Position numbers and translations under genes: made by a program. A stretch of DNA of 64,000 bases. Origin: Clostridia bacterium (lineage in GTDB: Bacteria; Bacillota; Clostridia; Oscillospirales; CAG-272). This document shows, in pieces, positions 10,691-54,790 of this stretch. The stretch spans positions 1 through 64,000 of the forward strand of contig JAFVQU010000003.1 of NCBI GenBank assembly GCA_017504625.1, written 5' to 3'. Under the pieces are notes generated by a model. That model had not been told where the DNA came from. It saw only the letters and a program-made list of their open reading frames with translations, and did no database searches. Numbering within the stretch: the stretch's first letter is position 1; each line of letters opens with the position of its first letter.

Positions 10691-10793
10691 AGAACAAAAG
10701 TTCTGAATGGTTGCTTTCTGGGGAGAAAGACGGCCTTTTAGAATTTGAATAATTGACAAAATGAAAAAAATATTATACAATATAGGAGGGAAA

Positions 10794-11366: not shown

Positions 11367-11376
11367 GGAGATGACT

Positions 11377-18419: not shown

Positions 18420-18455
18420 TTCTACCTCCATAGAATGTTTATTTGGTCACCTTCT

Positions 18456-37129: not shown

Positions 37130-37163
37130 AGAAGATCCCGACAGTGTCGGGATCTTCTTTTTA
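37129..37163. terminator. Bidirectional terminator
   Basis: AAAGAAGATCCCGACA / TGTCGGGATCTTCTTTTT stem between vanY and the metal ATPase gene. Confidence 0.92.
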
Positions 37164-39050: not shown

Positions 39051-39051
39051 C

Positions 39052-39273
39052 TCACTTTGCGATTATGCGGCAGTCGGAATCGATTTTTGATACCACCTTC
39101 TGCGCCTCTTTGAGTATTCTGTCAAAATCGTTTTCGCTCGCCTCAATAGTGAGCTTCTGCGTCATAAAGCTGACAGATGCCGAGATAACGCCCTCAATTT
39201 CGTTTATTTTTCTTTCCATTCTTGCCGCGCAATTTGCGCAGTCAACCTCGTCAAGTGTAAAAGTCTTTTTCAT
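39052..39273 (-). CDS. Stand-alone HMA metal-binding protein
   Basis: 73 residues, a single heavy-metal-associated ferredoxin-like domain with DCANCAARMERKI (CxxC metal site, here with an Asp before it, common in Zn/Cd carriers) and the typical ASVSFMTQKL strand. It would hand metal to the coupled ATPase or act as the detached regulatory domain. GAGGAG is 7 nt before the ATG at 39273; an upstream in-frame ATG is less well placed. Confidence 0.9.
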   Translation of the reverse strand: MKKTFTLDEVDCANCAARMERKINEIEGVISASVSFMTQKLTIEASENDFDRILKEAQKVVSKIDSDCRIIAK

Positions 39274-39277
39274 AAAA

Positions 39278-39637
39278 TTACTCCTCAATATGTTCAACAC
39301 CCATGTTGATTATAGTTTTCACGTGCTCATCGTCAAGAGAGTAGAGCACAGACTTGCCTATCTTGCGATATTTTACGAGCCTTGCGTCCTTGAGTATGCG
39401 GAGCTGGTGTGAGATAGCCGACATGCTCATCGAGAGCTTTTCTGATATGTCGCATACGCACATTTCGCCCTCAAAGAGCAGGTAGAGAATTTTTATGCGA
39501 GTGCTATCGCCCATCACCGAGAAAAACTCGGCAAGGCAGAAGAAATGTTCATCTTCAGGTAAGCTTATGCTGTCAATGATCTCGTGATGCGCCTCGTGAG
39601 AGTCGCAAAGCGGTAAATTTCCGTGTTCGTGAGCCAT
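39278..39637 (-). CDS. ArsR/SmtB-family metal-sensing repressor (CadC-like)
   Basis: 119 residues: a short N-terminal arm with Cys and several His (HEHGNLPLCDSHEAHHE), then a winged helix: FSVMGDSTRIKILYLL, ELCVCD-like EMCVCDISEKL (alpha3 cysteines), SMSAISHQLRIL recognition helix, and a C-terminal His/Glu helix. It should bind DNA without metal and release when Cd, Zn or Pb binds. GGAGG is 6 nt before the ATG at 39637. It lies directly downstream of a dyad that overlaps its start point. Confidence 0.92.
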   Translation of the reverse strand: MAHEHGNLPLCDSHEAHHEIIDSISLPEDEHFFCLAEFFSVMGDSTRIKILYLLFEGEMCVCDISEKLSMSMSAISHQLRILKDARLVKYRKIGKSVLYSLDDEHVKTIINMGVEHIEE

Positions 39638-39663
39638 TTTTGACCTCCATTTTCCAACAACAA

Positions 39664-39716
39664 TTGAACAGTTGTTCAACTATTGTTATTATATCATCAA
39701 AAACAAAAAATGTCAA
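39664..39716 (-). promoter_or_regulatory. Promoter and ArsR operator of the metal efflux operon
   Basis: Minus strand TTGACA (39711-39716), 17 nt, TATAAT (39688-39693); then the perfect dyad TTGAACA-GT-TGTTCAA (39664-39679) on the initially transcribed region. Longer imperfect flanks (CAATAG/CAATTG) resemble the usual 12-2-12 ArsR/SmtB operator. Confidence 0.82.
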
Positions 39717-39717
39717 T

Positions 39718-39748
39718 AAAAAACGGAGAATTTTCATTCTCCGTTTTT
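39718..39748. terminator. Terminator at the end of the microcompartment operon
   Basis: AAAAAACGGAGAA-TTTTCA-TTCTCCGTTTTT; stops the operon coming from 54.8 kb before the ArsR promoter. Confidence 0.9.
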
Positions 39749-39760
39749 GAAATATTAAAA

Positions 39761-40168
39761 TTAAAGCAAATGAGTGGGCATTTTGCCGCCGATCTGAACT
39801 ATCTCAACTGCTTCCTTTTCATTGTGCCCGATTACTGCCGCCACGGTTTCGGGTGCTACGTTTGTAAGAACCGCGGTTTCAACGGTTTTAGCGGGAGCTT
39901 CGCTGGGGGGAGTAACCGTTTCCTTGACGGTTTCCTTTTTGGTCGCGGTCTTCTTTGCAGCAGGCTTTTTAGCGGTAGCTGTGGGAGCCTTTGCCTCTGT
40001 CTTTTGTGCGGTAGTCTTAGCGGGAGCCTTCTTTGTGGTTGTAGTCTTCTTGGCAGGAGCCTTTTGGGGTGCTGCCGCAACAGTTGCTACAAGCTCGGGC
40101 GCGATGTTCTTTTCTTCGGTGGTGGTCTTTGCCACTCTCTTTGTGATGCTATCCTTACCTATCGGCAT
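39761..40168 (-). CDS. Lysine/alanine/proline-rich low-complexity protein, ParA partner candidate
   Basis: 135 residues with about 22 lysines. The basic N terminus MPIGKDSITKRVAK is followed by a histone-H1-like, disordered core (about 30-95) of AKK, TKK, PAAKK and APAK units, and a C-terminal stretch (about 100-135) that could form an amphipathic helix, ending IVQIGGKMPTHLL. Its ATG lies 14 nt inside the end of the ParA gene, so the two are made together. Basic tails like this are found on proteins that contact the nucleoid, and ParA-stimulating peptides are often N-terminal and basic. I infer an adaptor between ParA/nucleoid and a cargo. It could instead be a generic ParA partner unrelated to the compartment. 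Confidence 0.7.
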   Translation of the reverse strand: MPIGKDSITKRVAKTTTEEKNIAPELVATVAAAPQKAPAKKTTTTKKAPAKTTAQKTEAKAPTATAKKPAAKKTATKKETVKETVTPPSEAPAKTVETAVLTNVAPETVAAVIGHNEKEAVEIVQIGGKMPTHLL

Positions 40169-40946
40169 ATTTCATAATCTCCTTTGCCATTTCCATATAT
40201 TCCTGAGCCGCGCGGCTGGTTTTCTTGTAAGCCATAACGGGTTTGCTGTTGTCCTGCGACCACTCGACCGTGCTGTCGATCCTGATTATAGATTCGAGAA
40301 GTCTTACGTTGTCGAGAGAGGACAGAGTTTCAATGGTCTGCTTGAAATAATTTTTGCGCTCGCTTGCCTTAGTAACGGCAATTCCGAGAATCTCAATCGA
40401 GGGAGAAATAAGCTTGACCTGCTCGTAAAATTCAAACATATTTGCAAGTCCGAAAAGTCCCCAAGGCGACGCCTCAACGGGAATTATAAGATAATCGGAT
40501 GCGCACATAATGTTCATTACCCAGCAACCGAGTGTAGGAGGCGAGTCGATAAGAATGTAGTCGTACTTGCCCGATTCCTTGATCTTCTTAAGCCCCTGAC
40601 GGAGAATAAACTCTCTTTGCCACTTGGAAAAGAGCTGGAATTCGATACTGCTCATAAGCGTGGAGGAAGGTATGAGATCAAGTCCCTCGTACTCGGTCTG
40701 AACGATGTATTCGGAAAGATCCCTCTGCTCAACGATACCCGTGTAGATGTTCTTTCCACTCTGAGCCATTTCAAGCGACTTCTCGTCGTCAAAATAGGAT
40801 AAGGTAAGATTCATCTGCATATCAGAGTCAATAAGAAGCACCTTTTTGCCAAGTGTGCTCATAGCGTAGCCAACGTTGGCGCAGGTAGTCGATTTTCCGC
40901 TTCCGCCCTTGTTGTTGGCAAAGCAGATGGTTGTCGTTTGAGCCAT
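40155..40946 (-). CDS. ParA-family ATPase
   Basis: 263 residues. Deviant Walker A NNKGGSGKST (signature Lys13, Lys18), DSDMQMNLT (A' motif), IDSPPTLGCW (Walker B) and a C-terminal basic patch (KKTSRAAQEY) typical of nucleoid-binding ParA. These ATPases form gradients on the nucleoid that position plasmids, chemoreceptor arrays and carboxysomes. It begins 15 nt after the EutP/PduV stop, preceded by AGGACGG, inside the microcompartment operon, not near a replication origin or plasmid genes. The cargo is inferred, not shown. Confidence 0.93.
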   Translation of the reverse strand: MAQTTTICFANNKGGSGKSTTCANVGYAMSTLGKKVLLIDSDMQMNLTLSYFDDEKSLEMAQSGKNIYTGIVEQRDLSEYIVQTEYEGLDLIPSSTLMSSIEFQLFSKWQREFILRQGLKKIKESGKYDYILIDSPPTLGCWVMNIMCASDYLIIPVEASPWGLFGLANMFEFYEQVKLISPSIEILGIAVTKASERKNYFKQTIETLSSLDNVRLLESIIRIDSTVEWSQDNSKPVMAYKKTSRAAQEYMEMAKEIMKYADR

Positions 40947-40961: not shown

Positions 40962-41396
40962 TTATTCCTGATTTAAATAATCGATTATTTTGTCAAGTCC
41001 CTCACCCGTATAGGAGCTTACGTAAAAGATTTTCTCGGGCTTAAGTCCGCAGTTATGAAGCCATCTTTCAGCAAGGGGTACGTTAGCATCCTCCTTGTCA
41101 ATTCCCGAAATTATGCCTATAACGTCACGGTTTACGTGGTGAGTGCAGTTGGGGGGGAATACGCAGAAGGGCTCGTTCGCGCTTACGACGAGTCCTATAA
41201 CGTCTGCTTCGTACGAATAGACTGCCAAAGCCGCCGCCAAGGTGTGTACCTCGGTGTATTCGCCGGGCGTGTCTATTATCGTATCCATATAGGTGATATA
41301 TTGAGTTTTGCAGTAGTGTATCTGCTCACCCTTCAAGGCTTGGGTTAAGGTTGTTTTTCCAGCGGCAACCCTTCCCATCAAAATAAGTTTCTTCAT
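40962..41396 (-). CDS. pduV: EutP/PduV-like small GTPase
   Basis: About 144 residues with Walker A GRVAAGKTT, the switch region IDTPGEYTEV (DxxG equivalent) and a Ras-like fold ending in a TxGEGLDKII helix. EutP/PduV proteins accompany ethanolamine and propanediol compartments and PduV has been linked to compartment movement. The ATG at 41396 shares a base with the stop of the preceding gene (TAATG), so it is translationally coupled; a longer start 21 nt upstream has no SD. Confidence 0.9.
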   Translation of the reverse strand: MKKLILMGRVAAGKTTLTQALKGEQIHYCKTQYITYMDTIIDTPGEYTEVHTLAAALAVYSYEADVIGLVVSANEPFCVFPPNCTHHVNRDVIGIISGIDKEDANVPLAERWLHNCGLKPEKIFYVSSYTGEGLDKIIDYLNQE

Positions 41397-41767
41397 TACG
41401 TGCGGGTCATTTCGCATACAGAAAATTTAAGAACGTTTCTGAAATATTCTGTAATTGCAGTAAATGATGCCTCAACCTCTGCAACCTTACCCGTGATGAT
41501 GAGCGTACCCGAGAATCTGTCAACGAAACCGAGGTCTGCGCCCGAGGACTTGAGAGCAATATCTGCGGTAATGACTGCGGTTTCCGCGGGGCTTACCGTA
41601 AGCACGCCGATCGCCGCCTTCTCGTAATCAAGCTTGGGATCAAGACCGAGCTTCTGATAGAGTGTGGGGTCGGGATTTGCGATAATATGAGCAAGAGTGA
41701 TCTGACGACCGGGCACCAGCTCCTGCACTATTCTCATTTTATCTTGAAATTCAAAATTGTTTGACAT
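41396..41767 (-). CDS. pduU: PduU/EutS-type shell protein
   Basis: 123 residues; circularly permuted BMC-H domain of the PduU/EutS class: N-terminal RIVQELVPGRQITLAHIIANP forms the beta-barrel strand, then AIGVLTVSPAETAVITADIALKSS and DRFSGTLIITGKVAEVEAS. It forms hexamers in the shell with a plugged pore. GGAGG precedes the ATG. Confidence 0.93.
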   Translation of the reverse strand: MSNNFEFQDKMRIVQELVPGRQITLAHIIANPDPTLYQKLGLDPKLDYEKAAIGVLTVSPAETAVITADIALKSSGADLGFVDRFSGTLIITGKVAEVEASFTAITEYFRNVLKFSVCEMTRT

Positions 41768-41769
41768 AA

Positions 41770-42567
41770 TTATCCTCCGATCTGGACGTGAAGCTTAGTT
41801 GACGCGCCCTCAGCCGCCTTAAGAAGCATATTCATATGCTCGTTTGCGGGAGGAGCGATGCCGTCCATAAGATAGGTGCGGCCAAGACCTGCATACTTGT
41901 CCTGACCAAGTCTGTGGTAAGGAAGCAGATGCATTTCGGTCACGTTAGGGAGAGAATCGGCAAATCTTGCAATTGCCGCGATCTCTGCGGGCGTGTCGTT
42001 GAAGGTCGGCACGACGGGTACACGGATAATAAGGTGATTTGCGTTTTCTGCAATATATTTGGCGTTTTCAAGGATCTGCCCGTTCTCCTGAGTGGTAAAT
42101 TCCTTGTGCTTTGCGCTGTCCATGTGCTTGATGTCCATTAAGAAGTGGTCAACGTGGGGAAGTAAGCTCTGTACGACCTCGCGGTGAGCAAACGCAGTCG
42201 TTTCAATTGCGGTCGAGAAGCCAAATTCATGCGCCGCACGGAGAAGAGCCTCAGCAAACTCGGGCTGAGCCATGCACTCGCCGCCCGAAAGAGTAAGACC
42301 GCCTCCACTCTTTGCATAATAGATTCGATCCTTAAGGACTTCCTCCATTACCTCGGCAACTGTCACGTCGCGGCCCATTATCTCAACCTTGCCGCCACGC
42401 GTCATTTCTTCTATTTTGTATTCCTGTGATTCGGGATTGCAGCACCACTTGCAACGAAGATAGCAACCCTTGAGGAATACTATCGTTCTTATTCCGGGAC
42501 CGTCGTGCAACGAATATCTCTGAATATCAAAGATACGCCCCGTCTGTTCAAATATGTTCTTTGCCAC
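41770..42567 (-). CDS. Glycyl-radical enzyme activating enzyme (radical SAM)
   Basis: 265 residues. C35-x3-C39-x2-C42 (GCYLRCKWCCNPES) binds the [4Fe-4S] cluster that cleaves S-adenosylmethionine; SLHDGPGIRTIVFLKGC and GGGLTLSGGEC are family motifs. It abstracts hydrogen from the glycine of the dehydratase. The extra ferredoxin-like insert (two more clusters) seen in many dehydratase activases of about 300 residues is absent here; the enzyme has only the minimal pyruvate-formate-lyase-activase-like build. It is separated from the dehydratase gene by a 236-nt region full of hairpins. Confidence 0.93.
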   Translation of the reverse strand: MAKNIFEQTGRIFDIQRYSLHDGPGIRTIVFLKGCYLRCKWCCNPESQEYKIEEMTRGGKVEIMGRDVTVAEVMEEVLKDRIYYAKSGGGLTLSGGECMAQPEFAEALLRAAHEFGFSTAIETTAFAHREVVQSLLPHVDHFLMDIKHMDSAKHKEFTTQENGQILENAKYIAENANHLIIRVPVVPTFNDTPAEIAAIARFADSLPNVTEMHLLPYHRLGQDKYAGLGRTYLMDGIAPPANEHMNMLLKAAEGASTKLHVQIGG

Positions 42568-42803: not shown

Positions 42804-45335
42804 TTATAATCCGCCTTGCTCGGTACGGTTGATGATATCGTCCTGAAGCGAGCGGGAGAGGGTAGTGAAGAGTGCGCTATAACCTGCAACTCTTACTACG
42901 AGAGTTTTATACTTTTCGGGATTCTTCTGCGCGTCGATAAGAGTTTCTCTCGAAACTACGTTATACTGAACGTGCATACCCTTCTGATCGAAGTATCCGC
43001 GGAGGTAAGCCACGAACTTTTCAAGGCTTGACATGCTCGAAAGAGCGGAGGGATGGAACTTCTGGTTGAAGAGCGTACCGTTAGATGCGATACCGTGGTC
43101 AAGGCGCGCAACAGAGTTTGCAGTAGCGGTCGGACCCTTGATATCTCTGCCCGAAGCGGGGCCTACGCCGTCCGCAATGGGAGTGTACGCCAATCTTCCG
43201 TCAGGAGTAGCGCCGGTCTGATATCCGAGCGGGACGTTAGCCGATACGGGATAAAGACCTGCTTGGAAGATGCCTCCACGGGGATTGGTGAAATTCTCGA
43301 AGGGCTTGGTGTATGTGTTGCCAACCTCACGCGCAAACGCGTCAACCTCGGTAATATCGTTACCGTACTTGGGGAGAGCCTCGATCATTCGGAGGATCTC
43401 GTCGTATCTTGCTTTTTTATCTGCAGAAATATGAGAAGCGTTGATAAGACCGTTGTAGATCTCCTTGATAACGGCTTCGTTGATAGCAATACCCTCGGCT
43501 GCAAGATTCTTTGCAACCTCAACTGTAAGCTCGCTAGCCTTCTTGGGAATGAATCCCTTACCGAAGTTGTCGGCAAGTGCCTGCTTCATCTCAGCCATGG
43601 TAACTTTCTTTTCCTCGAAGACGAGAGTCTTGATCGCAAGAAGAGCGTCTGTCATATTTGCAATACCGAATCCCTGAGGACCGGTGAAGTTGTAGTGCGC
43701 GCCACCTTCCTGAAGCGAAACACCGCGCTCAATGCAATCGTTGCAGAGGCAGGACTGGAAGGGGAGAGGACAACGAACGCTGTGAGCATAGTCAACCGCG
43801 TTGTCGGCATGTACCATCATTTCTATAAAGTGAAGCTCCTGAGCCTTGTACGCATCAAAGAACTCTTCAAACGTGGTCATCTTTTCAACGTCACCGGTCT
43901 GAAGACCGATAAGCTCGCCCTTGTCGTAGCCGTTCGAGAAAACAAGCTCGAGAGGACGGCACATATTGAAGAATGCCGCATCGTGCCAGCCGTCGGTTCT
44001 TGCGCCCTTCTGAGGCTCAACGCAACCGATTATACAGTAATCACGCGCATCCTGAAGGGTAAGACCTCTTGCCATAATAGCGGGGATAATGACCTCGTCG
44101 TTGTAGAACGCGGGAACGCCAAGGCCCTCTCTCGTAACTGCCGCCGCCTTTATAAGAAGATCGTGGGGAGTGCAGTTCCATACACGGATGGAAAGCGAAG
44201 GCTGGGGAAGACGAACGTGCATCGTTGCTTCCATACACATGTAGGAAAGCTCGTTGGTAACGTCAACACCGTCCTCGTTCTGACCGCCTACGATAAGGTT
44301 CTGGAAGAGTCCGTATCCTGCAAATCCTTCTGCGGATGCCGCATCTCTTACCTTGGTAAGATCGTTAAGCTTTACCCAAATACAGTCAAGGTATTCCTGC
44401 GCCTCTTCAAGTGTGATAGTACCGTTGTCAAGATCCTTCTTGAAGAGAGGATACATATACTGGTCAAAACGACCGGGGGAGATCGAGTGTCCGCTTGATT
44501 CGCACTGAATAAGCTGCTGAACGAACCAGAACGCCTGGCAAGCCTCGTAGAAGTTGCGCGCGGGTTTTGCGGGAACTCTGTCACAGGTCTCTGCAATGCG
44601 GAGAAGCTCTGCCTTACGAACGCTGTCGGTGCATTTACCTGCTTCCTTAAGAGCAAGCTCGGAGTAGCGGCGAGCGTAGAAAATTACTGCCTCACAGCTT
44701 TCAATTACAGACTCAAGGAAGTTCTTGCGGCTAAGATAATCGCCGTTACCGATGTAGAGCTTTGCCATTGCTTGACGAGCTTCTTCAATAACGCCCTCAA
44801 GACCTTTGTATATAACCTTTGCGTAGTCAACGTTGATGTGACCGATACCGTTGTAGAAGTAGTTTCCTACGGTGAAGATTCCATGGTTAAGAAACACGTC
44901 AAGAACCTCGGGGTCCATAGACTGTGCCGCGAGATCGCTTACAGTCTTACCCTTCCAGTAAGGATGTACCTTCTTAAGTCTTTCAACGGTTTCGGGAGAG
45001 ATGTAGAAGCGGTCTGCATCTCTTGTTGCGATTGTATCGTATTCACCCTCAAGCCATTCAAACGAGTACTCGGGGAAGGTCTGACAGCTACGGGGAACTA
45101 TCGAGTTGCTTCCGACGATAAGCTCTTCGGGACGAATGACTATCGGAATGTTCTCAAGTATGTGGCGAAAAGCTGCAGAACGACGCTTCACTATCGGAAG
45201 ACCTTCAGTCTGCTTGTAGCTTTCGGTGATCAGCTCGGCTCTGTCTGCCTCGATCTGAGGTGTAGCCGCATAAAGATGATCGATAAGCCTCTGAATTCTT
45301 GGGCTTTTTTCTATAACGAATTTAATTTGATTCAT
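42804..45335 (-). CDS. Glycyl-radical 1,2-propanediol dehydratase
   Basis: 843 residues. Converts (S)-1,2-propanediol to propanal without B12. The active-site set of the glycerol/propanediol dehydratase subclass is present: H166 (GIGHINVDY), C438 and E440 (IIGCVEPQ), D452 (GWHDAAFFN), and glycyl-radical site G818 (RVAGYSA). Pyruvate formate-lyase would have a Cys-Cys pair, and choline lyase differs around the HDAAFFN block. The gene context (class II aldolase, propanal-type dehydrogenase, PduL) favours propanediol from fucose/rhamnose over glycerol. The gene is oxygen sensitive and needs the activase at 41770. Hairpin repeats flank it on both sides. Confidence 0.93.
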   Translation of the reverse strand: MNQIKFVIEKSPRIQRLIDHLYAATPQIEADRAELITESYKQTEGLPIVKRRSAAFRHILENIPIVIRPEELIVGSNSIVPRSCQTFPEYSFEWLEGEYDTIATRDADRFYISPETVERLKKVHPYWKGKTVSDLAAQSMDPEVLDVFLNHGIFTVGNYFYNGIGHINVDYAKVIYKGLEGVIEEARQAMAKLYIGNGDYLSRKNFLESVIESCEAVIFYARRYSELALKEAGKCTDSVRKAELLRIAETCDRVPAKPARNFYEACQAFWFVQQLIQCESSGHSISPGRFDQYMYPLFKKDLDNGTITLEEAQEYLDCIWVKLNDLTKVRDAASAEGFAGYGLFQNLIVGGQNEDGVDVTNELSYMCMEATMHVRLPQPSLSIRVWNCTPHDLLIKAAAVTREGLGVPAFYNDEVIIPAIMARGLTLQDARDYCIIGCVEPQKGARTDGWHDAAFFNMCRPLELVFSNGYDKGELIGLQTGDVEKMTTFEEFFDAYKAQELHFIEMMVHADNAVDYAHSVRCPLPFQSCLCNDCIERGVSLQEGGAHYNFTGPQGFGIANMTDALLAIKTLVFEEKKVTMAEMKQALADNFGKGFIPKKASELTVEVAKNLAAEGIAINEAVIKEIYNGLINASHISADKKARYDEILRMIEALPKYGNDITEVDAFAREVGNTYTKPFENFTNPRGGIFQAGLYPVSANVPLGYQTGATPDGRLAYTPIADGVGPASGRDIKGPTATANSVARLDHGIASNGTLFNQKFHPSALSSMSSLEKFVAYLRGYFDQKGMHVQYNVVSRETLIDAQKNPEKYKTLVVRVAGYSALFTTLSRSLQDDIINRTEQGGL

Positions 45336-45524: not shown

Positions 45525-46070
45525 TTAAATCTGCGCCCAGAGCTCTGCGTGGGGAGCAGGTATAACGGTTGAGCCGAAGAATACACCCTGATCCTTAGCG
45601 TGCTGAGAGCCTGCCTCAACAGCTGCGGTGACGTCGCCAACGTCGCCGGTTACAAGGCAAACGCCCTTACCGCCCATACCGCGAGAGGTACGAAGTTCGA
45701 AGATGGAAACCTTTGCGGTCTTTACTGCGATATCAGCCGCCTTTATGATAGAAGCAGCAGAGAATGTTTCAATAATTCCAAGGCTGCCCTTCTTCTCAGA
45801 GGGCTCTGTGCCGAAGAGGGCGGTAACCACCTGGGGATCGATGCGTCCCATAATGGAGTAGTCAACAAGCTTTTCATCGAATCTGCCTCTTACGTGGTCA
45901 ACAGCCGCAGTAACGTCGGAGATAGAGCCGGTGAGGATTATCTCATACTTACCGGGACAAGCTGCGTGTGCGGAAATAAGGCTGATGCCTGCGCTCTTGA
46001 GAGCTGCGTCGGTTGCCTCAATGCCTTTTGCTATACTTTTAAGTTCAATTACACCTATTGCGTGATACAT
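45525..46070 (-). CDS. pduT: PduT-type trimeric shell protein with Fe-S cysteine
   Basis: 181 residues: two tandem BMC domains (residues 1-90, MYHAIGVIELKSIAKGIEA; and 95-181, GSLGIIETFSAASIIKAAD), giving a trimer. C38 in ACPGKYEI matches the cysteine that places a [4Fe-4S] cluster in the central pore of Salmonella PduT. It probably passes electrons across the shell to the flavoprotein-like PduS encoded next to it. A ribosome site AAAGGG precedes the ATG. Confidence 0.94.
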   Translation of the reverse strand: MYHAIGVIELKSIAKGIEATDAALKSAGISLISAHAACPGKYEIILTGSISDVTAAVDHVRGRFDEKLVDYSIMGRIDPQVVTALFGTEPSEKKGSLGIIETFSAASIIKAADIAVKTAKVSIFELRTSRGMGGKGVCLVTGDVGDVTAAVEAGSQHAKDQGVFFGSTVIPAPHAELWAQI

Positions 46071-46100: not shown

Positions 46101-47426
46101 TTACGCCTCAATTACTATCTTTGTGGGATCTACGAATACGACCTTACCCGAGATCGACGCGTGCTGGGGAACCGAAAGTCCTGTGCCAAGTCCCGCGATA
46201 ACCTGTCCTTCGGTAACTACGTCGCCTACATTTACGCAGGGAACGGAGGGAGCGCCGATGTGCTGAGACATCTTGATCTCAACGCGAGAAGCCTTGATCT
46301 TTTTGGGGAGGTATTTGGGAACAACGTCGTATTTATGTACTCCGAGAATGTCTTCCCACTTTGCAGATTGGATCATACGGTACTCTCTGTCAGAGCTTAC
46401 CTTATATTCTTCGTTGCCTGCAACGAATCTCATCTTATTCTTTGCGAGAATGCCCTTGAGATTGAGAATGACGTCCTTGGGTGAGATCTCCTGGCAGCAG
46501 ACCTCTGCGCAAATGCCGCAAGAGCAACAAAGGGAAGCAGTCTTGATAAGGTCGGGATGATCTTCAGCAGCTGCATTGAGCGCAACTCTGATCATCTTAT
46601 GAGGCTCAAGAGGATATCCGAGAAGGTGTCTGGGACACATTTCGGTACATCTGGTACATCCGCAACAAGCGGAGCTTGCGCGGCGAAGCATATCGTCCAT
46701 AGCAACTCTCTTGTTCTTTACGCAACGAGCGCTGTCGGGAATGATAAGAAGCGATTTTGTGGTTTTTGTAATAACCGCGACTGCGGGATCGACGATCTTA
46801 CCCATTGAAGGGCCGCCGTCGAACATGATCTGATCATCCTTAAGACGAACGCCGAGAATATCGAAAAGCTCCGAAACTCTCATGCCTACGGGAACCTTAA
46901 CGACGTATCTTTCGGGAAGATCACCGCCAATGGTAACCCACTTTTCAGTAACGGGCTTACCTTCCTTAACCGCTTCGCATACGTTGTATACCGTCTCGCC
47001 GTTGAGAACGATAACTCCTGCAGTGATAGGAAGATTGCCGGGCTTGACAATGCGTCCGGTTGCCTGATAGATGAGAGAGATTTCATCGCCCATCGGGTAA
47101 ACGTTGGGAAGAAGCTTTACGCTAACGTCCTTACCGAGCATCTGATCGTCGGAGTAACCGAGCATGTGTGCGCGATGCTCCTTTATTGCAACGTAGGTGT
47201 GCTTGATTCCGGTATACGCCATAACTGCCTGCGCGCCCTCAACGATCTTGCTCATTTCTTCGCGCATAAGCATATAGTCGGTATACATAAGGGGCTCACA
47301 TTCTGCACAGTTGATGCAGAGAATGTCGGCTCCGTCCGCCAGCTTTCCAAAGGAGGGGAAGCCTGCGCCGCCCGCGCCTACGATACTGCTATTCTGCATT
47401 AAAGATTTTAAATCAAATTTTGTCAT
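46101..47426 (-). CDS. pduS: PduS-type cobalamin-reductase-like / RnfC-like electron-transfer protein
   Basis: 441 residues. N-terminal RnfC-like region with GAGGAGFPSFGKL and ECEPLMYTDY (flavin/NADH-binding part related to NuoF), an SLBB-type middle, two [4Fe-4S] motifs CCGCTRCTEMCP and CCSCGICAEVCC, and a C-terminal biotinyl/sandwich-hybrid domain. In a B12-independent system its likely task is regenerating NAD+ or moving electrons through PduT rather than reducing cobalamin; this is inference from the neighbour gene. Confidence 0.92.
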   Translation of the reverse strand: MTKFDLKSLMQNSSIVGAGGAGFPSFGKLADGADILCINCAECEPLMYTDYMLMREEMSKIVEGAQAVMAYTGIKHTYVAIKEHRAHMLGYSDDQMLGKDVSVKLLPNVYPMGDEISLIYQATGRIVKPGNLPITAGVIVLNGETVYNVCEAVKEGKPVTEKWVTIGGDLPERYVVKVPVGMRVSELFDILGVRLKDDQIMFDGGPSMGKIVDPAVAVITKTTKSLLIIPDSARCVKNKRVAMDDMLRRASSACCGCTRCTEMCPRHLLGYPLEPHKMIRVALNAAAEDHPDLIKTASLCCSCGICAEVCCQEISPKDVILNLKGILAKNKMRFVAGNEEYKVSSDREYRMIQSAKWEDILGVHKYDVVPKYLPKKIKASRVEIKMSQHIGAPSVPCVNVGDVVTEGQVIAGLGTGLSVPQHASISGKVVFVDPTKIVIEA

Positions 47427-47486: not shown

Positions 47487-47750
47487 TTACGCCTGCTTTT
47501 TATCTACAATTCCGACTACCGCCGCGTCAACGGGAATGTCCTGATTGCCAACGGCAACTCTTGCGCCGCTGCCGGTAGTTACGAGAACTTCCTCTCCGAT
47601 GCCTGCGCTTACGGTGCGATCAACCGCCACTATGTACTTGTCGGTAAGCTCCTGATTTTCAATAAGCTGGATCTCAAGGAACTTGAAGCCGATAAGTTTG
47701 TCGAGCTTATTGGTCGAAACGATATTTCCAACTACTTTTCCTTTTAACAT
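47487..47750 (-). CDS. eutN: EutN/CcmL-type pentameric vertex protein (BMC-P)
   Basis: 87 residues; MLKGKVVGNIVSTNK start, KFLEIQLIE and the conserved VDAAVVGIVD end. Pentamers cap the corners of the shell. 18 nt separate its stop from the next upstream unit; the gene lies between PduL and PduS genes. Confidence 0.95.
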   Translation of the reverse strand: MLKGKVVGNIVSTNKLDKLIGFKFLEIQLIENQELTDKYIVAVDRTVSAGIGEEVLVTTGSGARVAVGNQDIPVDAAVVGIVDKKQA

Positions 47751-47768: not shown

Positions 47769-48431
47769 TTAATCTTTTACAACGGTAACCTTGCTGCCGT
47801 TTTTGAAGCCGACTGCGTTTGCATCGTCGGTGTCAACGTGCATTTCAAGGCGGAAGTCCTTGTGAACTCTGACCTGAACGTCAAACCATCTTGTCCTCTT
47901 GGTTCCGGACATAGCATCAACGTCGATGTAATCGTTGTCCTTAACTCCGAAGCGAGTCGCGTCGTCGGGACTCATGTGGATGTGACGGTTAGCGATGATA
48001 CAACCCTGCGAGAGCTTAACTATACCCTTAGGGCCGATGATCGTGATGGGAGAGGATCCCGTAAGGCTTCCCGATTCACGAACGGGGGGCTTTACCTTAA
48101 GAACGTAGGAATCAGTGACCGATATCTCGACCTGACTTGCTTTTCTCAGCGGGCCAAGAACTCTTACGCCTTCAATTGCCTTCATGGAAGGACCTACGAT
48201 AGTCAAGGTCTCCTTGCAAGCGTACTGACCGGGCTGGGAGAGATCCTTTAAGTGTGTAAGCTCGTAGCCCGTGCCGAAGAGCGTTTCAAGATCTTCTTTT
48301 GTCAGGTGAATGTGTCTGTTAGAAATACCAACGGGAATTTCAAGCGCACCGCCGTTACATGATGCGGTGCCAGTCATTTCATTTACGATCTTTTTTACGA
48401 TGCTTTCAATATCCTGTGTCGAAATGCTCAT
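47769..48431 (-). CDS. pduL: PduL phosphotransacylase
   Basis: 220 residues. Converts propionyl-CoA (or acetyl-CoA) and phosphate into acyl phosphate and CoA, recycling CoA inside the compartment. Metal ligands: VGISNRHIHLTKEDL and IANRHIHMSPDDATRFG, and MHVDTDDANAVGF near the end. Residues 1-20 (TQDIESIVKKIVNEM) form an amphipathic helix of the encapsulation-peptide type, then a linker. Preceded by a 168-nt spacer with strong hairpins. Confidence 0.95.
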   Translation of the reverse strand: MSISTQDIESIVKKIVNEMTGTASCNGGALEIPVGISNRHIHLTKEDLETLFGTGYELTHLKDLSQPGQYACKETLTIVGPSMKAIEGVRVLGPLRKASQVEISVTDSYVLKVKPPVRESGSLTGSSPITIIGPKGIVKLSQGCIIANRHIHMSPDDATRFGVKDNDYIDVDAMSGTKRTRWFDVQVRVHKDFRLEMHVDTDDANAVGFKNGSKVTVVKD

Positions 48432-48599: not shown

Positions 48600-48875
48600 T
48601 TAGCCGAGAGTGGGGAGGAGCTTGTTAACGTCAGTGTGAGGTCTGGGGATAACGTGAGTTGCAATAACCTCGCCGAGAGCGGAAGCTGCTGCGCCGCCTG
48701 CCTCAACTGCTGCCTTTACTGCACCAACGTCGCCGCGAACCATAACGGATACGAGTCCGCTACCGATCTTCTCGGAACCGATAAGCTGTACGTTTGCTGC
48801 CTTAACCATAGCATCTGCTGCCTCGATTGCTGCTACGAGACCTCTGGTCTCTACCATTCCCAATGCTTCATTCAT
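48600..48875 (-). CDS. Hexameric shell protein BMC-H, copy A
   Basis: 91 residues, PduA/EutM-like: [28 protein letters not shown], then [22 protein letters not shown] and the VIPRPHTDV end. Forms facet hexamers with small pores. Differs from the copy at 49313 by one residue (Ala versus Arg in the ASALGEV stretch). Confidence 0.96.
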
Positions 48876-48931: not shown

Positions 48932-49216
48932 TTAAACGCCTTTGTCAGTTTTAATGAATCTGATAATGTCGGGATGAGGACGTGCAATAACTTCCTTACA
49001 CATAACCTGACCGACTGCCTGCGCGGCTTCGACACCCGCCTCAAGAGCGGCAGTAACTGCCGAAACGTTACCTTCAACGACAACTGTCACAAGTCTTCCG
49101 CCCAAGCGCTTTTCAACGTGGATAAGCTTAACGTTTGCAGCCTTGACCATAGCGTCAAGACCAACGATAGCCGTTACCATTGCTTGAACTTCAAGCAGTG
49201 CAATTGCATTTTCCAT
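48932..49216 (-). CDS. Hexameric shell protein BMC-H, divergent
   Basis: 94 residues; [31 protein letters not shown] with KRLGGRLVTVVVEGNVSAV. The usual pore-loop glycine sequence (KIGSG) is replaced by KRLGG, implying a different, more positively charged pore. Lies between the two near-identical BMC-H copies. Confidence 0.94.
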   Translation of the reverse strand: MENAIALLEVQAMVTAIVGLDAMVKAANVKLIHVEKRLGGRLVTVVVEGNVSAVTAALEAGVEAAQAVGQVMCKEVIARPHPDIIRFIKTDKGV

Positions 49217-49312: not shown

Positions 49313-49588
49313 TTAACCGAGAGTGGGGAGAAGCTTGTTAACGTCGGTGTGAGGTCTGGGGATAACGTGAGTAGCGATAACCTCGCCGAGTCTGGAAGCT
49401 GCTGCTCCGCCTGCCTCAACTGCCGCCTTTACCGCGCCAACGTCGCCGCGAACCATAACGGATACGAGTCCGCTACCGATCTTTTCGGAACCGATAAGCT
49501 GTACGTTTGCTGCCTTAACCATAGCATCTGCTGCCTCGATTGCTGCTACGAGACCTCTGGTCTCTACCATTCCCAATGCTTCATTCAT
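49313..49588 (-). CDS. Hexameric shell protein BMC-H, copy B
   Basis: 91 residues, nearly identical to copy A at 48600. Nucleotide differences are unevenly spread: one in the first 142 coding bases, about twelve in the rest. Likely recent duplication with partial homogenisation. Doubling the main facet protein would raise its dose. Confidence 0.96.
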
Positions 49589-49990: not shown

Positions 49991-51217
49991 TCAGTTTTCG
50001 TTGATATAGCAGATCTTGATACCCTTCTGCGCTACGTTGGTTTCCATAGCCTCATTCATCTTGTCGAGAGGGAAGGAATGAGTGATAAGCTCTTCGATCG
50101 GTATGTTCATTTCCTGACACTGCTTTAAGAATGCCACGGTCTTGGGGTAGTCCTCAGCGGAGTAATCCCAAGAGCCTACGATATCGATCTCCTTGTTACA
50201 CATAGCAAAGTGGGGATTTACCTGATATTCTCCGTTGTTTACGAAGAAGCCCATCTCGCACATACCGCCGCCGCGACGGATGTAGCTGTAGATGTCTGCA
50301 GCCGCTATGGGAGCGCCGGTGCACTGGAAAGCAAAGTCAACGCCAACGTTATTAGCGATAGCCTTTACCTTTGCAACTCTCTTGTCAAGCGTGTCCTCGT
50401 CGGGACGACGGAAGCAGATAGTTGTCTTTGCGCCCATTCTCTGTGCGACCTTGAGTCTGTCCTCGTTACCGTCAACCGCGATGATGTGGTTGATACCTGC
50501 AGCGCGGAGAACCGTGATCATAACAAGACCTACGGGGCCGCAGCCCTGAACGAGAACCTTAGAGCCGAAGTTGAGAAGACCGGTCTTCTGACCTCTCTCG
50601 AGTGCGTGTACGCATACGCAAGCAAGCTCGAGGATCATTCTCTGCTTGAGGTTAAGCTCGTTAACCTGGAAATATGTAACGCCGTGTCCGCCCTTGATCA
50701 CCATGTAATCTGCGAACCAGCCGTTAACTCTGTTGCCCTCAGCCGTTCCTCTCTTATCACCGATAAGACCGAAAACGCCCTGATTGTCACAAAGATTTGT
50801 TCTGCCGGGAACCATACGGCAAGCGTAGCAATCGCCACAGCTGAGAACCGAGGTGACGATCTTGTCGCCAACCCTAAGGGGCTTGCCCGCGGTGTCGCTT
50901 GTTACGTTCTTTCCTACCGCAACGACCTCGCCCGTGCCCTCGTGACCGAGAATTACGGGAATAAGTCCGAAGGGATCGGCTTTCCATTCATGTACGTCAG
51001 TTCCGCAAACGCCTGCACCTTCAACCTTAACGAGAATATCGTTATCGCCAAGTGCGGGGATCGGGATCTTTTGTACTTCTATCTTTTTCTGACCGACAAG
51101 CATTGCAACGTTAGCAGTGGTGGGGATGGGGCCCTGTGCCTTTGCGGTAGCGCCTGTACCCATCGAGCTGATAACCGAGCGAACGATGCTTTCGATCTGA
51201 GAAGCTGTGATATCCAT
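49991..51217 (-). CDS. Zinc-dependent alcohol dehydrogenase (MDR family), encapsulated
   Basis: 408 residues. Residues 1-20 (TASQIESIVRSVISSMG) are an amphipathic encapsulation-type helix and linker. Then medium-chain dehydrogenase: catalytic-zinc CGTDVHEWK and GHEGTGEVVAVG, structural-zinc cysteines (CGDCYACRMVPGRTNLC), nucleotide fold VQGCGPVGLVMITVL. It would reduce lactaldehyde to 1,2-propanediol and/or propanal to propanol, regenerating NAD+. Many propanediol compartments use an iron-type PduQ instead. Confidence 0.9.
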   Translation of the reverse strand: MDITASQIESIVRSVISSMGTGATAKAQGPIPTTANVAMLVGQKKIEVQKIPIPALGDNDILVKVEGAGVCGTDVHEWKADPFGLIPVILGHEGTGEVVAVGKNVTSDTAGKPLRVGDKIVTSVLSCGDCYACRMVPGRTNLCDNQGVFGLIGDKRGTAEGNRVNGWFADYMVIKGGHGVTYFQVNELNLKQRMILELACVCVHALERGQKTGLLNFGSKVLVQGCGPVGLVMITVLRAAGINHIIAVDGNEDRLKVAQRMGAKTTICFRRPDEDTLDKRVAKVKAIANNVGVDFAFQCTGAPIAAADIYSYIRRGGGMCEMGFFVNNGEYQVNPHFAMCNKEIDIVGSWDYSAEDYPKTVAFLKQCQEMNIPIEELITHSFPLDKMNEAMETNVAQKGIKICYINEN

Positions 51218-51247
51218 CTCTTAAATGTATCCTTTCGTGAGATTTGA

Positions 51248-52708
51248 TCAGATAATTCTGAAGCTGTCCACCATTACGCAACGGCGCTTTCTTGTGAAGG
51301 AACGAGCCGAGGTGATACCCTCGCCGGTAGGACCTGCGATGGTAAAGGTGGTGTGTCCCTCGCCGCCGAAGCCGATGCCTGCATAGGAGGGAGCGTTCTT
51401 AACGAAGATAGTCGTTTCAACCGCACGGGCGAACGCGGTGAGGTTGTCGATGTTCTTCGAATGCATGTGAGCGGTGTGGCGGTTGCCGTGCTCAGCCTTA
51501 ACAGCCAAGTCAATAGCCTCGTCGATGTCCTTTACGCGAACGATACCGAGAATAGGCATCATAAGCTCTTCCTGCACGAAGTCGTGCTCGAAGGGAACCT
51601 CAGCGATAGCGCAACGGATCTCGGGACCGACCTTGATGCCGATCTTCTCAAGGATCACGCGGCAGTCACGACCTACACAGTCGCGGTTGACCGACTTGGT
51701 TATCTTACCATTCTTGCCTTCCTTTTCAACAAGGACAACCTTTGCAAGAGCGTCTGCCTGAGCCTTCGTAAGAAGGATACAGCCGTTCTTCTTCATGCCT
51801 GCGATAAGTCTGTCGGCAACGTTGTTAAATACGAAAACTTCCTTTTCGGCGATACAGGGGAGGTTGTTATCGAAGGTACATCCGTCGATAATATCCTTTG
51901 CTGCCTTATCGATGTCAGCCGTGTCGTCGACGATAACGGGAGGGTTACCCGCGCCCGCGCCGATAGCCTTCTTGCCCGAGGAGAGAACCGCGCGAACAAC
52001 GCCGGGGCCACCCGTGCAAACGAGGAGCTTGATCGAAGGATGCTTATACATAACGTTTGCGGTATCAAGCGTAGGCTTGACAACGCTTGCAACGAGCACG
52101 CGGGGACCGCCTGCCGATGCTACTGCGCGGTTAACGAGGTCAACGGCGTAGTTGGATGTAGCGATAGCGCCGGGGTGGGGGTTGAAAACAACGCCGTTTC
52201 CTGCCGCTATCATACCGATACTGTTACAGATAACAGTTTCGGAGGGATTGGTCGAGGGTGTGATCGCACCGACTACTCCGAAGGGAGCCATTTCAGTGAG
52301 AGTCAAGCCACAGTCACCTGTTCTTGCCTCTTCGATGATATCCTCGGTACCGGGAGTCTTGTCAGCCACGAGAAGATGCTTTGCATACTTGTGATCAACG
52401 CGACCCATCTTGGTTTCAGCAACTCCGAGAGCCGCCAGGGTCTGAGCCTCGGCTCTGGTAAGCTCTCTGATTGCCGTAATGATCTTTTCTCTCTGAGCTA
52501 CCGTCATGGAGCGAACTGCCTTGTATCCTGCGTTTGCTACCTCGATGGCTTCTTCCATCGTTTCGTAAACACCGATAAGGCGGCGTCCGCGGTACTGGGT
52601 GGAATCCCATTCCTTAACTGCGGTTGACGGAGCAGAGGGCTTTTTGAATTCCGATACAACGCGAGCAACGATTTCGTTGATCTGCGCCTCGGTCAAATTA
52701 TTAACCAT
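51248..52708 (-). CDS. pduP: CoA-acylating propionaldehyde dehydrogenase (PduP-like)
   Basis: 486 residues. Oxidises propanal (or acetaldehyde) with NAD+ and CoA to propionyl-CoA. Catalytic Cys in DNNLPCIAEKEVF; nucleotide-binding TGGPGVVRAVLSSGKKAIGAG; TPSTNPSETVICN. N-terminal helix LTEAQINEIVARVVSEFKK is a typical encapsulation peptide, followed by a P/S/A linker. GGAG lies upstream of the ATG. Confidence 0.95.
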   Translation of the reverse strand: MVNNLTEAQINEIVARVVSEFKKPSAPSTAVKEWDSTQYRGRRLIGVYETMEEAIEVANAGYKAVRSMTVAQREKIITAIRELTRAEAQTLAALGVAETKMGRVDHKYAKHLLVADKTPGTEDIIEEARTGDCGLTLTEMAPFGVVGAITPSTNPSETVICNSIGMIAAGNGVVFNPHPGAIATSNYAVDLVNRAVASAGGPRVLVASVVKPTLDTANVMYKHPSIKLLVCTGGPGVVRAVLSSGKKAIGAGAGNPPVIVDDTADIDKAAKDIIDGCTFDNNLPCIAEKEVFVFNNVADRLIAGMKKNGCILLTKAQADALAKVVLVEKEGKNGKITKSVNRDCVGRDCRVILEKIGIKVGPEIRCAIAEVPFEHDFVQEELMMPILGIVRVKDIDEAIDLAVKAEHGNRHTAHMHSKNIDNLTAFARAVETTIFVKNAPSYAGIGFGGEGHTTFTIAGPTGEGITSARSFTRKRRCVMVDSFRII

Positions 52709-52739
52709 TTTGCAATGCTCCTTATTTATAGATTAGGAA

Positions 52740-53555
52740 TTACTTACCGAGAGCTGCGATAACCTTTCTGGTGATCTCAGCTACGAGATCGTCACCTGCG
52801 GGAGCAGAGTGAGAGCCGCAGTCACACTTGCCGTCAGCACACTTGCAGTTTGGAGTACCCTTGTTGGGGCAGGACTTGCATCCGGGATGCTTGCCGGGGA
52901 GACCCATCTTCTTACGAAGCTCCATAAGTCTCTCAAGCTCGTGGCAGGAGATCTCGTCGATGCGGCTGTTTGCGCCTGCACCGATCTGACGAGCGTAAAG
53001 GTTGATCTTTGCGTTGAACTCTACCTCTTCCATGGTGAAGCAAGCTCTGAGAAGAGTGTTACCAACGGTAAGAGCACCGTGGTTCTTAAGAAGGAACGCG
53101 TCGTGCTTCTGGATATAGGGCATAAGGGAGTCGGGAATCTCCATGGTGGAGGGCATACCGTAGTCACAGGTAGGAACGTTACCGATGGTGAGAATTGCCT
53201 CGGGAAGAATGTACTGGTCGAGCTCTACGCCTGCAACGGTGAATGCGGTTGCAACGGGGGGATGAGCGTGAACGACAGCGTTAACGTCGGGACGCTCCTG
53301 ATAAACTCTCATGTGCATCTTGATCTCGGAGGAGGGGTTGAGTCTACCTTCAACCTTGTTGCCGTTGCCGTCGATCTTGATGATCATGTCGGGGGTCATG
53401 TAGCCCTTGGATACACCGGTAGGGGTGCAGTAATACTCGTTGGGGCCAACCTTAACGGAAATGTTACCGTCGTTTGCTGCTACGAAACCGTGATCGTAAA
53501 TTCTCTTACCGATGTCACAGATTTCTCTCTTGATTTCAAAGGGTGATCTTGCCAT
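52740..53555 (-). CDS. Class II sugar-phosphate aldolase (fuculose/rhamnulose-1-P) with Cys-rich tail
   Basis: 271 residues. Splits L-fuculose- or L-rhamnulose-1-phosphate into DHAP and lactaldehyde. Zinc ligands: HAHPP (two His), LKNHGALTVG (third His); substrate motif NDGNISVKVG. Ordinary enzymes stop near 215; this one adds a tail with six cysteines in 21 residues (C226, 229, 237, 239, 244, 246) and then GDDLVAEITRKVIAALG, an amphipathic encapsulation-type helix. The Cys knot may bind metal or an Fe-S cluster or hold the targeting helix away from the core. AAAGGAAAT precedes the start. Confidence 0.92.
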   Translation of the reverse strand: MARSPFEIKREICDIGKRIYDHGFVAANDGNISVKVGPNEYYCTPTGVSKGYMTPDMIIKIDGNGNKVEGRLNPSSEIKMHMRVYQERPDVNAVVHAHPPVATAFTVAGVELDQYILPEAILTIGNVPTCDYGMPSTMEIPDSLMPYIQKHDAFLLKNHGALTVGNTLLRACFTMEEVEFNAKINLYARQIGAGANSRIDEISCHELERLMELRKKMGLPGKHPGCKSCPNKGTPNCKCADGKCDCGSHSAPAGDDLVAEITRKVIAALGK

Positions 53556-53596
53556 TTTGTTGATTTCCTTTCGTTTATATCAATTTTTTATTTGCT

Positions 53597-54790
53597 TTAT
53601 TTAACCAGCTCAAAGGTATCGGACGCGATCATATATTCCTCGTCTGTGGGAATTACGACTACCTTTACCTTGGAGTCGGGAGCACTGATTATAAGATTTT
53701 CGCCTCTGGGGCCGTTCATGTTGGCCTCGCGGTCGAGCTTGATGCCGAAGAACTCAAGATTGTCGCCGATAAGCTGACGGGTGAGTCTGTCATTTTCACC
53801 AAGACCTGCGGTGAAGATAAGAACGTCAATTCCGTTCATCTCTGCAACGTAAGAGCCGATGATCTTCTTTGCGTAGTGAACAAGAAGCTCCATAGCGAGC
53901 TTTGCTCTTTCGTTACCCTGGTCTGCAGCTGCCCAAACGTCACGCGCGTCGTTGGAAACGCCCGAAACGCCGAGAAGTCCCGACTTTTTGTTCATAATAT
54001 CGTTGACCTCAGCGGCAGTCATGCCGGTTTGCTCTATTATGTAAGGGATGATAGAGGGGTCGATAGAACCGCAACGGGTACCCATGGGAAGTCCCTCCTG
54101 AGGAGTGAATCCGAGAGAGGTATCAATTGCCTTACCGCAGTCAACCGCTGTGATAGAGGATCCTGAGCCGATATGGCAGGAAACTATCTTGGTGCTGTTA
54201 TAGTCAAGACCGAGGAACTTACAAGCCTCAGCGGAAACATAGCGGTGGCTTGTTCCGTGGAAGCCGTAGCGGCGAACACCGTACTTTTCATACCACTCAT
54301 AGGGGAGGGGATAGATGTAGGTCTTTGGCTCGAAGCCTGAATAGAAGGAGGTGTCGAATACGCCTGCCTGAGGAGTGTCGGGCATAAGAGCCATACAAGC
54401 GGCAACGCCCTTAAGCGCGGGAGGTCCGTGGAGGGGATTGATGGGTATGATCGATTCGATATACTTGATCTCCTCTTCGCCGAGAAGGCAGGACTTGTTG
54501 AGCTTGCCTCCGTGAGCAAATCTGTGTCCTACTGCGCTGATCTCGCTGACGTCGGCGATAACGCCGTATTCTGCGTCGGTGAGAAGCTTGAGGACGAGAG
54601 CGATAGCTTCGTTGTGGGTAGGCATGGGGTAATCTGCTTCGTAGTTTTCCTTACCGGGACGCTTGTGGGTGATAGCACCGCTGAGTCCTATTTTTTCGCA
54701 AAGACCCTTTGCAAGCACCTTGCCGCTTTCCATATCAAAGAGCTGATACTTAAGCGAGCTGCTTCCGGCATTGATTACCAGAATTTTCAT
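53597..54790 (-). CDS. ackA: Acetate/propionate kinase
   Basis: 397 residues, ASKHA fold. Acyl phosphate plus ADP gives carboxylate plus ATP; with PduL it completes propionate formation. Motifs: NAGSSSLKYQLF, VGHRFAHGG, VFDTSFYSG, RRYGFHGTSHRYV, CHIGSGSS and GGLGEND-like AGLGENDRLTR. GGAAAGGAA stands 12 nt before the ATG. First gene of the microcompartment operon after a long leader, so acetate kinase levels are tied to the compartment. A specificity choice between acetate and propionate is not possible from sequence. Confidence 0.93.
   Translation of the reverse strand: MKILVINAGSSSLKYQLFDMESGKVLAKGLCEKIGLSGAITHKRPGKENYEADYPMPTHNEAIALVLKLLTDAEYGVIADVSEISAVGHRFAHGGKLNKSCLLGEEEIKYIESIIPINPLHGPPALKGVAACMALMPDTPQAGVFDTSFYSGFEPKTYIYPLPYEWYEKYGVRRYGFHGTSHRYVSAEACKFLGLDYNSTKIVSCHIGSGSSITAVDCGKAIDTSLGFTPQEGLPMGTRCGSIDPSIIPYIIEQTGMTAAEVNDIMNKKSGLLGVSGVSNDARDVWAAADQGNERAKLAMELLVHYAKKIIGSYVAEMNGIDVLIFTAGLGENDRLTRQLIGDNLEFFGIKLDREANMNGPRGENLIISAPDSKVKVVVIPTDEEYMIASDTFELVK

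Follow-up and report, generated by a model that had tools for sequence, protein, structure and literature searches.

A ParA-type ATPase and a small lysine-rich partner close a glycyl-radical microcompartment operon: a candidate positioning system with a possible link to ParB

Organization of the operon

The window analysed here is a stretch of 64,000 nucleotides from a Clostridia bacterium (assembly GCA_017504625.1, contig JAFVQU010000003.1, positions 1 to 64,000). Its minus strand carries a bacterial microcompartment (BMC) operon of the 1,2-propanediol glycyl-radical type, closed by genes for a ParA ATPase and a lysine-rich protein of 135 residues. The features are as follows, beginning at the downstream end.

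39720..39747, minus: intrinsic terminator hairpin, 3′ of the last gene (folding energy against shuffles)
39761..40168, minus: partner/adaptor protein, 135 residues (ORF; low-complexity middle rich in Lys, Ala, Thr and Pro; net charge +10)
39764..39799, minus: conserved C-terminal tail of the partner, VQIGGKMPTHLL-COOH (alignment; putative cargo-binding motif)
40127..40168, minus: conserved basic N terminus of the partner, MPIGKDSITKRVAK (alignment; putative ParA-activating peptide)
40155..40168, minus: overlap of the ParA and partner genes, 14 nt (ORF coordinates)
40155..40946, minus: ParA-type Walker ATPase, 263 residues (Pfam/NCBIfam ParA/AAA_31, alignment, AF2 model)
40449..40475, minus: invariant clade signature EASPWGLFG, ParA residues 158-166 (alignment)
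40887..40916, minus: deviant Walker A motif NNKGGSGKST (alignment)
40962..41417, minus: EutP/PduV GTPase-like protein (Pfam, NCBIfam)
41396..41767, minus: EutS/PduU-like BMC shell protein (Pfam, NCBIfam)
41770..42567, minus: glycyl-radical enzyme activase (Pfam, NCBIfam)
42804..45335, minus: glycyl-radical diol dehydratase (Pfam; best solved relative 5i2a, 1210 bits)
45525..46070, minus: PduT-like BMC-T shell protein (Pfam, NCBIfam)
46101..47426, minus: RnfC-type, PduS-like electron-transfer protein (Pfam, NCBIfam)
47487..47750, minus: EutN-like pentamer candidate, 87 residues, MLKGKVVGNIVST (by eye)
47769..48431, minus: phosphate propanoyltransferase, PTAC (Pfam, NCBIfam)
48600-48875, 48932-49216, 49313-49588 and 49646-49978, minus: four BMC-H-type genes (the first by Pfam, the others by sequence)
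49991..54790, minus: zinc-type alcohol dehydrogenase (database match), and what we take from sequence to be an aldehyde dehydrogenase, a class II aldolase and an acetate kinase

By the ORF coordinates, ParA starts 15 nt beyond the EutP stop codon and the 135-residue reading frame overlaps the 3′ end of ParA by 14 nt. The hairpin beyond the pair has a folding energy of -17.6 kcal/mol (z -3.9; one of 200 shuffles is equally good); a consensus scan of the window does not have it among its predictions. The original prediction placed a ParA with a deviant Walker A motif 15 nt downstream of EutP/PduV, an overlapping gene for a 135-residue protein after it and an intrinsic terminator directly after the pair, and all three are found there, the ParA also by its Pfam and NCBIfam matches. 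Seven PF00936 matches are among those listed for this genome.

Against solved structures the glycyl-radical enzyme scores 1210 bits with the diol dehydratase 5i2a and 958 bits with glycerol dehydratase, which, together with the aldolase, fits a compartment that takes fucose or rhamnose to 1,2-propanediol. The order EutS-EutP-ParA-partner is kept in all 12 genomes of the genus, this one included, and the arrangement is therefore not a matter of chance. In one genus member (G001, locus L014) ParA is split over two frames near its N terminus; either the assembly is wrong there or the gene is broken. Within the window operon the BMC-H paralogues at 48600-48875 and 49313-49588 differ by eye at one residue in 91, which suggests a recent duplication or conversion.

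Among the other features of the window, we note that a minus-strand group of genes lies downstream of the pair (37161-39716), encoding by eye an ArsR-type regulator (39278-39679), a small heavy-metal-binding protein and a P-type metal ATPase. A promoter matching the consensus at 12 of 12 positions (39716-39688) lies just beyond the terminator, and an inverted repeat can be seen by eye in the promoter region. Elsewhere, a minus-strand gene (14064-18431) encodes a 1455-residue protein with Endonuclease I and OB-fold matches and a proline-rich stretch, and a Barstar-family protein is encoded on the plus strand (11371-11703), immediately 3′ of a 201-residue ORF (10761-11366).

A distinct clade of ParA proteins

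The product of the ParA gene is a ParA/MinD-type ATPase with a deviant Walker A motif, as expected of an McdAB-like system, and the two lysines of the motif (K13 and K18) are invariant in all 22 aligned rows. The AF2 model (pLDDT 89.9) has the Soj/ParA fold in a structure search. Within the family of the window organism (f1), 19 of 146 genomes encode a close relative (E≤1.1e-100, 55-100% identity), and the next ParA among the matches listed falls to 2.2e-42 and is of the Soj type; by its sequence, the window ParA belongs to a distinct clade. Since the same genome has a separate Soj gene followed by a ParB with both ParB_N and HTH_ParB, the window protein is not the chromosome-segregation ParA. 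Of 35 loci with a ParA of the Soj type, 34 have a ParB gene beside it, and none of the Soj-type ParA rows listed for f1 is near EutP; one (G078) shares a contig with it, 69 kb away.

A ParA profile matches the solved chains in the order ParA 8ray (4.6e-40), Soj (1.7e-32) and Cyanothece McdA (1.8e-17), and the first McdA stands at rank 17 in a fold search with the ParA model. The protein thus stands nearer to other members of the ParA family than to McdA, the comparison covering McdA of Cyanothece, of the beta type. Such affinity for ParA and Soj is what would be expected if the genes were a DNA partition system, of a plasmid or an integrated element, lying by chance beside the BMC operon, and the ParB_N domains in partners of the deep lineages (see below) point the same way. 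We nevertheless consider this explanation very improbable, as the ParA is linked to BMC-bearing genomes both in f1 and in the Lachnospiraceae, and HTH_ParB is absent from the window partner and from the seven ParB_N partners scanned. Further, in the plasmid and phage collections none of the records matched at E≤1e-20 (1085 and 51, respectively) reaches 60% identity, the best of those listed being 40% for plasmids and 35% for phages. An origin of the ParA from a mobile element was rejected for want of close relatives in these two collections.

Two ParA proteins from the small family f57 (L138 and L152, genomes G243 and G558) group with Lachnospiraceae rows, apart from the other f57 rows; judged by this placement, horizontal transfer is possible.

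The partner protein has conserved ends and a variable middle

The partner survey drew on 147 loci with 120 distinct ParA sequences. Picking by position and an N-terminal GK, with the C-terminal tail left out as a criterion, gave partners at 133 loci, so the GK is invariant among these by construction. Two picks are false (L179 and L182, an AraC-type gene) and were dropped before the count of 104 distinct complete partners, and five divergent partners with GR, GT or GA in place of GK stand outside it. When the downstream ORFs of the first 28 family and genus loci are taken without a motif filter, all 28 are the same kind of gene with the same conserved ends. The offset of the overlap with ParA is identical in 112 of the 133 picked loci.

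The 104 partners range from 63 to 375 residues in length, and 103 of them have [ML]-P-x-[YFWH]-L-[LM] as their extreme C terminus, the exception (L186) ending in F. Residue -3 is Y in 66, H in 15, F in 14 and W in 9, such that Y, F or W occupies it in 89 of 104; the window partner is among the 15 with His, and its tail has no Trp. An acidic residue is present at -7 or -8 in 78 of 104. Among the five divergent partners the strict tail is kept in L165 and L178, altered to I at -6 in L170, and missing from L184 and L188. The motif is rare in other frames: among the 379 frames of at least 60 residues in the window it matches only the partner itself, and a slightly wider pattern matches just one of 8746 frames of at least 30 residues in 31 other loci, a 40-residue frame (L206) that we take to be spurious. 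On these alignments the C terminus of the partner is a short, fixed tail motif.

The linker, by comparison, differs in length, composition and charge, with net charges from -6 to +28 across partners; in the seven f57 partners the median is -2 and both ends are still kept. From its composition, the linker would be disordered. Selection on the two ends with a variable middle gives the protein the layout of a tether.

The original prediction described the partner as having a basic N terminus, which stands (28 of 28 loci without a motif filter), and a histone-H1-like core, which does not survive as more than a matter of composition. No Pfam family is matched at its cut-off by the window partner (39761-40168); it scores 21.7 bits with the NCBIfam Hc2 model (cut-off 135) and 14.1 with Pfam HC2 (cut-off 40). 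These faint composition matches, along with the net charge of +10, are what could suggest a histone-like DNA binder tying compartments straight to the nucleoid. That both Hc2 scores fall far under their cut-offs, that charge varies so widely and is slightly negative in f57 with the ends maintained, and that conservation is confined to those ends make such a role scarcely credible, and the histone-like reading of the partner was rejected.

Linkage to microcompartment genes

All 19 clade ParA genes of f1 have a true EutP gene (E≤1.2e-43) no more than 140 nt away, and such a EutP is present in 34 of the 146 genomes (P=6e-15 for co-occurrence). A EutS-type shell gene is in the same short stretch at the 12 genus loci (three of them within the f1 sample) and at 16 of 16 others. 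Relatives of the ParA in genomes of named species were found in 520 stretches, of which the best 80 (at least 65% identity) were retained. EutP is upstream in 68 of these 80, with a gap of 6-676 nt; the remaining 12 are mostly from Lachnospiraceae, with one (L132) cut by a contig end, and BMC genes are present in all 12 genomes.

EutP was rejected as an obligate companion of ParA, because nine loci (L107, L110, L117, L120, L123, L127, L129, L130 and L133) have no adjoining EutP; two of these (L129 and L130) are still inside a BMC locus, and L110 directly follows a glycyl-radical enzyme and its activase. With pairs occurring where no EutP is nearby, the pair is unlikely to need it, and the suggestion that PduU or PduV is the shell target of the basic protein finds no support.

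A second sample comprises 299 genomes of Lachnospiraceae, the family of Konateibacter massiliensis, a known positive on which the sample is centred. Clade ParA is encoded by 34 of these, and all 34 have BMC genes, compared with 92 of 299 overall (hypergeometric P 2.5e-20, a value that ignores kinship); the 35 ParA sequences concerned fall into nine clusters at 75% identity. One genome (G604) is BMC-positive by a single gene, and discounting it leaves 33 of 34 (P=2e-18). In at least 12 of the 34 the listed coordinates put ParA no more than 20 kb from a BMC gene; among the others, those that can be placed from the matches listed have it farther away or on another contig.

In f57 the ParA is present in nine of nine genomes and BMC genes in eight. 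The BMC matches are on different contigs from ParA, though in G243 the contig of ParA also has some, at a distance of about 104 kb; the ninth genome (G557), whose partner has ParB_N, yielded no BMC genes and is 76% complete. A class-wide sample contains the clade in three of 391 genomes, all three BMC-positive (113 of 391 overall), too few for a statistical test.

In the genomes sampled, the predicted co-location with microcompartments is thus upheld, by 19 of 19 loci beside EutP in f1, 68 of the best 80 and 34 of 34 BMC-positive Lachnospiraceae, with the pair often away from the BMC locus in Lachnospiraceae and f57. One of the strains carrying both the pair and BMC genes is a named one, K. 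massiliensis Marseille-P3773 (L127). At five BMC loci (L091, L093, L094, L114, L116) a clade ParA is beside EutP, and about 10 kb of upstream sequence yields no glycyl-radical enzyme; here the pair may also act in compartments with another chemistry.

Compartments without the pair and ParA without a partner

Of the 34 f1 genomes with EutP, 15 do not have the clade ParA. EutS and a glycyl-radical enzyme are found around EutP in 15 of 15, and no tail-bearing frame was found in these surroundings. These genomes hold the compartment without the pair, which is therefore an accessory of this compartment type.

A ParA without an adjacent partner is seen at 11 of the 147 loci, two from f57 (L138, L152) and nine from Lachnospiraceae (L113, L134, L172-L174, L179, L180, L182 and L185). 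In the latter the ParA adjoins what we presume, by eye, to be an AraC-type gene, a rhamnulokinase or a glycyl-radical enzyme (two being upstream of the enzyme gene). BMC stretches from all 11 genomes contain BMC genes, and a tail-bearing protein hidden within the operon was rejected, as no candidate is convincing and the lone match is the L206 frame mentioned above. The partner of the ParA-only Lachnospiraceae may have been lost, replaced or located elsewhere.

A different role for the pair would be in compartment assembly, in which ParA would regulate condensation or compartment number and the tail would be a peptide for encapsulation or for assembly of the shell. The tail and the BMC linkage would fit such a role equally well, and the partner is a low-complexity protein with a short terminal motif. 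Yet BMC stretches without the pair keep their other usual genes, the two-ended layout of the partner matches that of ParA partners, and we know of no ParA ATPase that is required for encapsulation; we regard an assembly role as unlikely. A protein linking shell and cargo does have a counterpart in EutQ, to which this function is attributed (PMC12487888).

A possible connection to ParB

In nine partners, seven from f57 and two from Lachnospiraceae (L159 and L177), the two conserved ends flank a ParB N-terminal domain. PF02195 (ParB_N) is matched in seven of seven partners scanned at 36-54 bits (cut-off 26.3), with L154 and L157 assigned by alignment, and Pfam finds HTH_ParB neither in these seven nor in the window partner. 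The L158 partner has a lysine-, alanine- and proline-rich stretch as well as ParB_N. Fold prediction for an f57 partner is of moderate quality (mean pLDDT 66.7, core blocks 73-89); the top fold matches of the model are ParB and Noc, and PadC (6ryk) is at rank 32. By eye, the GERR arginine patch is kept as GHKR and ENxQR is lost, both of which we take to be ParB motifs, and the loss of the latter makes the use of CTP by these partners doubtful. A ParB_N remnant in the window partner was looked for and rejected, there being no Pfam match. With a profile built from f57 partners, L159 and L177 score strongly and other partners, among the matches listed, weakly, as shared ends and composition would give.

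Two ParA trees were built, the first from 40 genome-collection rows and all others, the second from 71 hand-chosen rows with a bootstrap that has not settled. In the second, the seven f57 rows with ParB_N partners are outside a group, supported by 99/100, of all other clade rows used. The L159 and L177 rows are inside this group, so that at least four changes in ParB_N are needed on the tree. A very long stem, of 4.2 changes per column, and low support where the deepest rows part from one another (92/16, 94/70) leave the root within the clade unsure. Our reading of these sequences is that ParB_N is probably ancestral in the partners and was lost several times.

A plausible scenario, which we lean towards by a modest degree, is that the adaptor is a converted ParB, in which the parS-binding HTH was lost and the PxYLL tail gained, with the pair moving into the BMC operon. 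The ParB_N (CTPase-fold) domain would later have been replaced by a low-complexity, lysine-rich linker in most descendants, including the window partner. With ParABS the system shares the fold and motifs of its ParA, a partner that begins with a short basic segment and, in deep partner relatives, ParB_N; it differs in its BMC linkage and in that the partners scanned have a protein tail in the place of HTH_ParB.

The nearest relative in the plasmid and phage collections (40%) is from Acetoanaerobium noterae, in a BMC-bearing record. Its ParA is paired with a protein with both ParB_N and HTH_ParB and sits on a very long branch; we therefore give its BMC no weight and draw the ParB origin of the adaptor from f57, L159 and L177. 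The record (L220, NZ_CP154629.1), which has 11 BMC-domain matches, is described as a plasmid; its size of 2.6 Mb suggests a mislabelled chromosome.

PadC is a protein of Myxococcus, a member of another phylum, and we know of no PxYLL tail in it. In other respects it offers a parallel, as a ParB-type domain and ParA are likewise brought together on a protein structure: PadC has the ParB-CTPase fold and recruits ParA to bactofilin (PMC12704722), whereas the f57 partner would act with a microcompartment. The same survey of the fold does not mention microcompartment, carboxysome or McdB in the text accessible to a term search. We found no description of a ParB-domain BMC adaptor in the available literature on ParB together with microcompartments, shell proteins or McdB, the key tables of McdB-like proteins lying beyond the reach of this search. 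In one case, EutK, a ParB-like action has been speculated upon (PMC12487888).

Comparison with McdAB and a proposed mechanism

Like the alpha and beta McdAB systems, the pair joins a ParA-family ATPase to a small partner encoded next to it, whose N terminus is basic and whose C terminus carries a known or, here, putative cargo motif, with the genes lying inside a BMC operon or close to one (PMC6328274, PMC8262871, PMC11321042). The aromatic residue that this motif holds in McdAB has a counterpart in Y, F or W at -3 in 89 of 104 partners, the window partner having His. In Halothiobacillus McdB the N-terminal 20 residues, foremost K7, bind McdA (PMC12204374), and the C-terminal W of McdB binds carboxysomes (PMC11321042).

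There are also several differences. The window ParA is nearer to ParA and Soj chains than to the one McdA compared, from Cyanothece, and keeps the signature lysine that McdA of S. elongatus does not have (PMC6328274). Unlike McdB, the partners finish in P-x-[YFWH]-L-L, with W at -3 rare (9 of 104), and the window partner does not have the invariant C-terminal Trp of carboxysome McdB. Further, McdB is reported to lack any similarity to ParB (PMC6328274), whereas deep relatives of the window partner carry ParB_N.

ParA genes in BMC loci have been noted before (PMC4207490), as have McdAB-like genes near EUT and PDU operons (PMC13052382); McdB-like proteins whose C terminus holds an aromatic residue are described in PMC8262871. 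At PDU and GRM loci such proteins have Y or F among the last five residues (PMC11321042) and, like the partners of this clade, are BMC-linked and have acidic residues nearby. Compared on the basis of these published descriptions, the window partner is very probably of the same predicted kind, and since McdB-like proteins had already been predicted at such loci the idea of positioning is not new. What we add to the descriptions in PMC11321042 and PMC8262871, so far as their available parts extend, is the clade, the exact tail, the pairs away from the BMC locus and the ParB_N forms; we rate the ParB link of the adaptor as the new part. ParA is not named in the portion of PMC3557285, on the fucose/rhamnose BMC of C. 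phytofermentans, covered by a term search. Counting against positioning, Pdu BMCs of Salmonella are reported to be unaffected by McdAB, ParA or MinD (PMC12866334).

We consider it likely that the pair positions the glycyl-radical (fucose/rhamnose, 1,2-propanediol) microcompartment in the manner of McdAB. The layout of the genes, the clade, the BMC linkage and the conserved ends of the partner all support the McdAB-like role that had been proposed for it, from which the positioning itself is inferred. ATP-bound ParA dimers would coat the nucleoid and the partner would serve as a tether, its C-terminal tail docking on the compartment surface and its low-complexity linker bridging the gap between compartment and ParA. 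The basic N terminus of the partner would reach the ParA dimer interface, stimulate ATP hydrolysis and release ParA. We propose that, with ParA released in this way, compartments would move along gradients of ParA, become distributed over the length of the nucleoid and be shared out at division. Nucleoid binding, ATPase stimulation, shell binding and positioning are thus predicted functions of the pair, modelled on McdAB as described in the available text of PMC6328274, PMC12204374 and PMC11321042.

Implications

How metabolosomes are placed and inherited has been called unclear (PMC8262871). The tail motif and the ATPase family of the clade are both defined, and the pair and BMC genes are carried together by at least one named strain. 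Should the ParB link be right, the origin of BMC adaptors would be explained for one class at least, and extant genomes would show a partition system switching its cargo stepwise, from DNA to a protein organelle.
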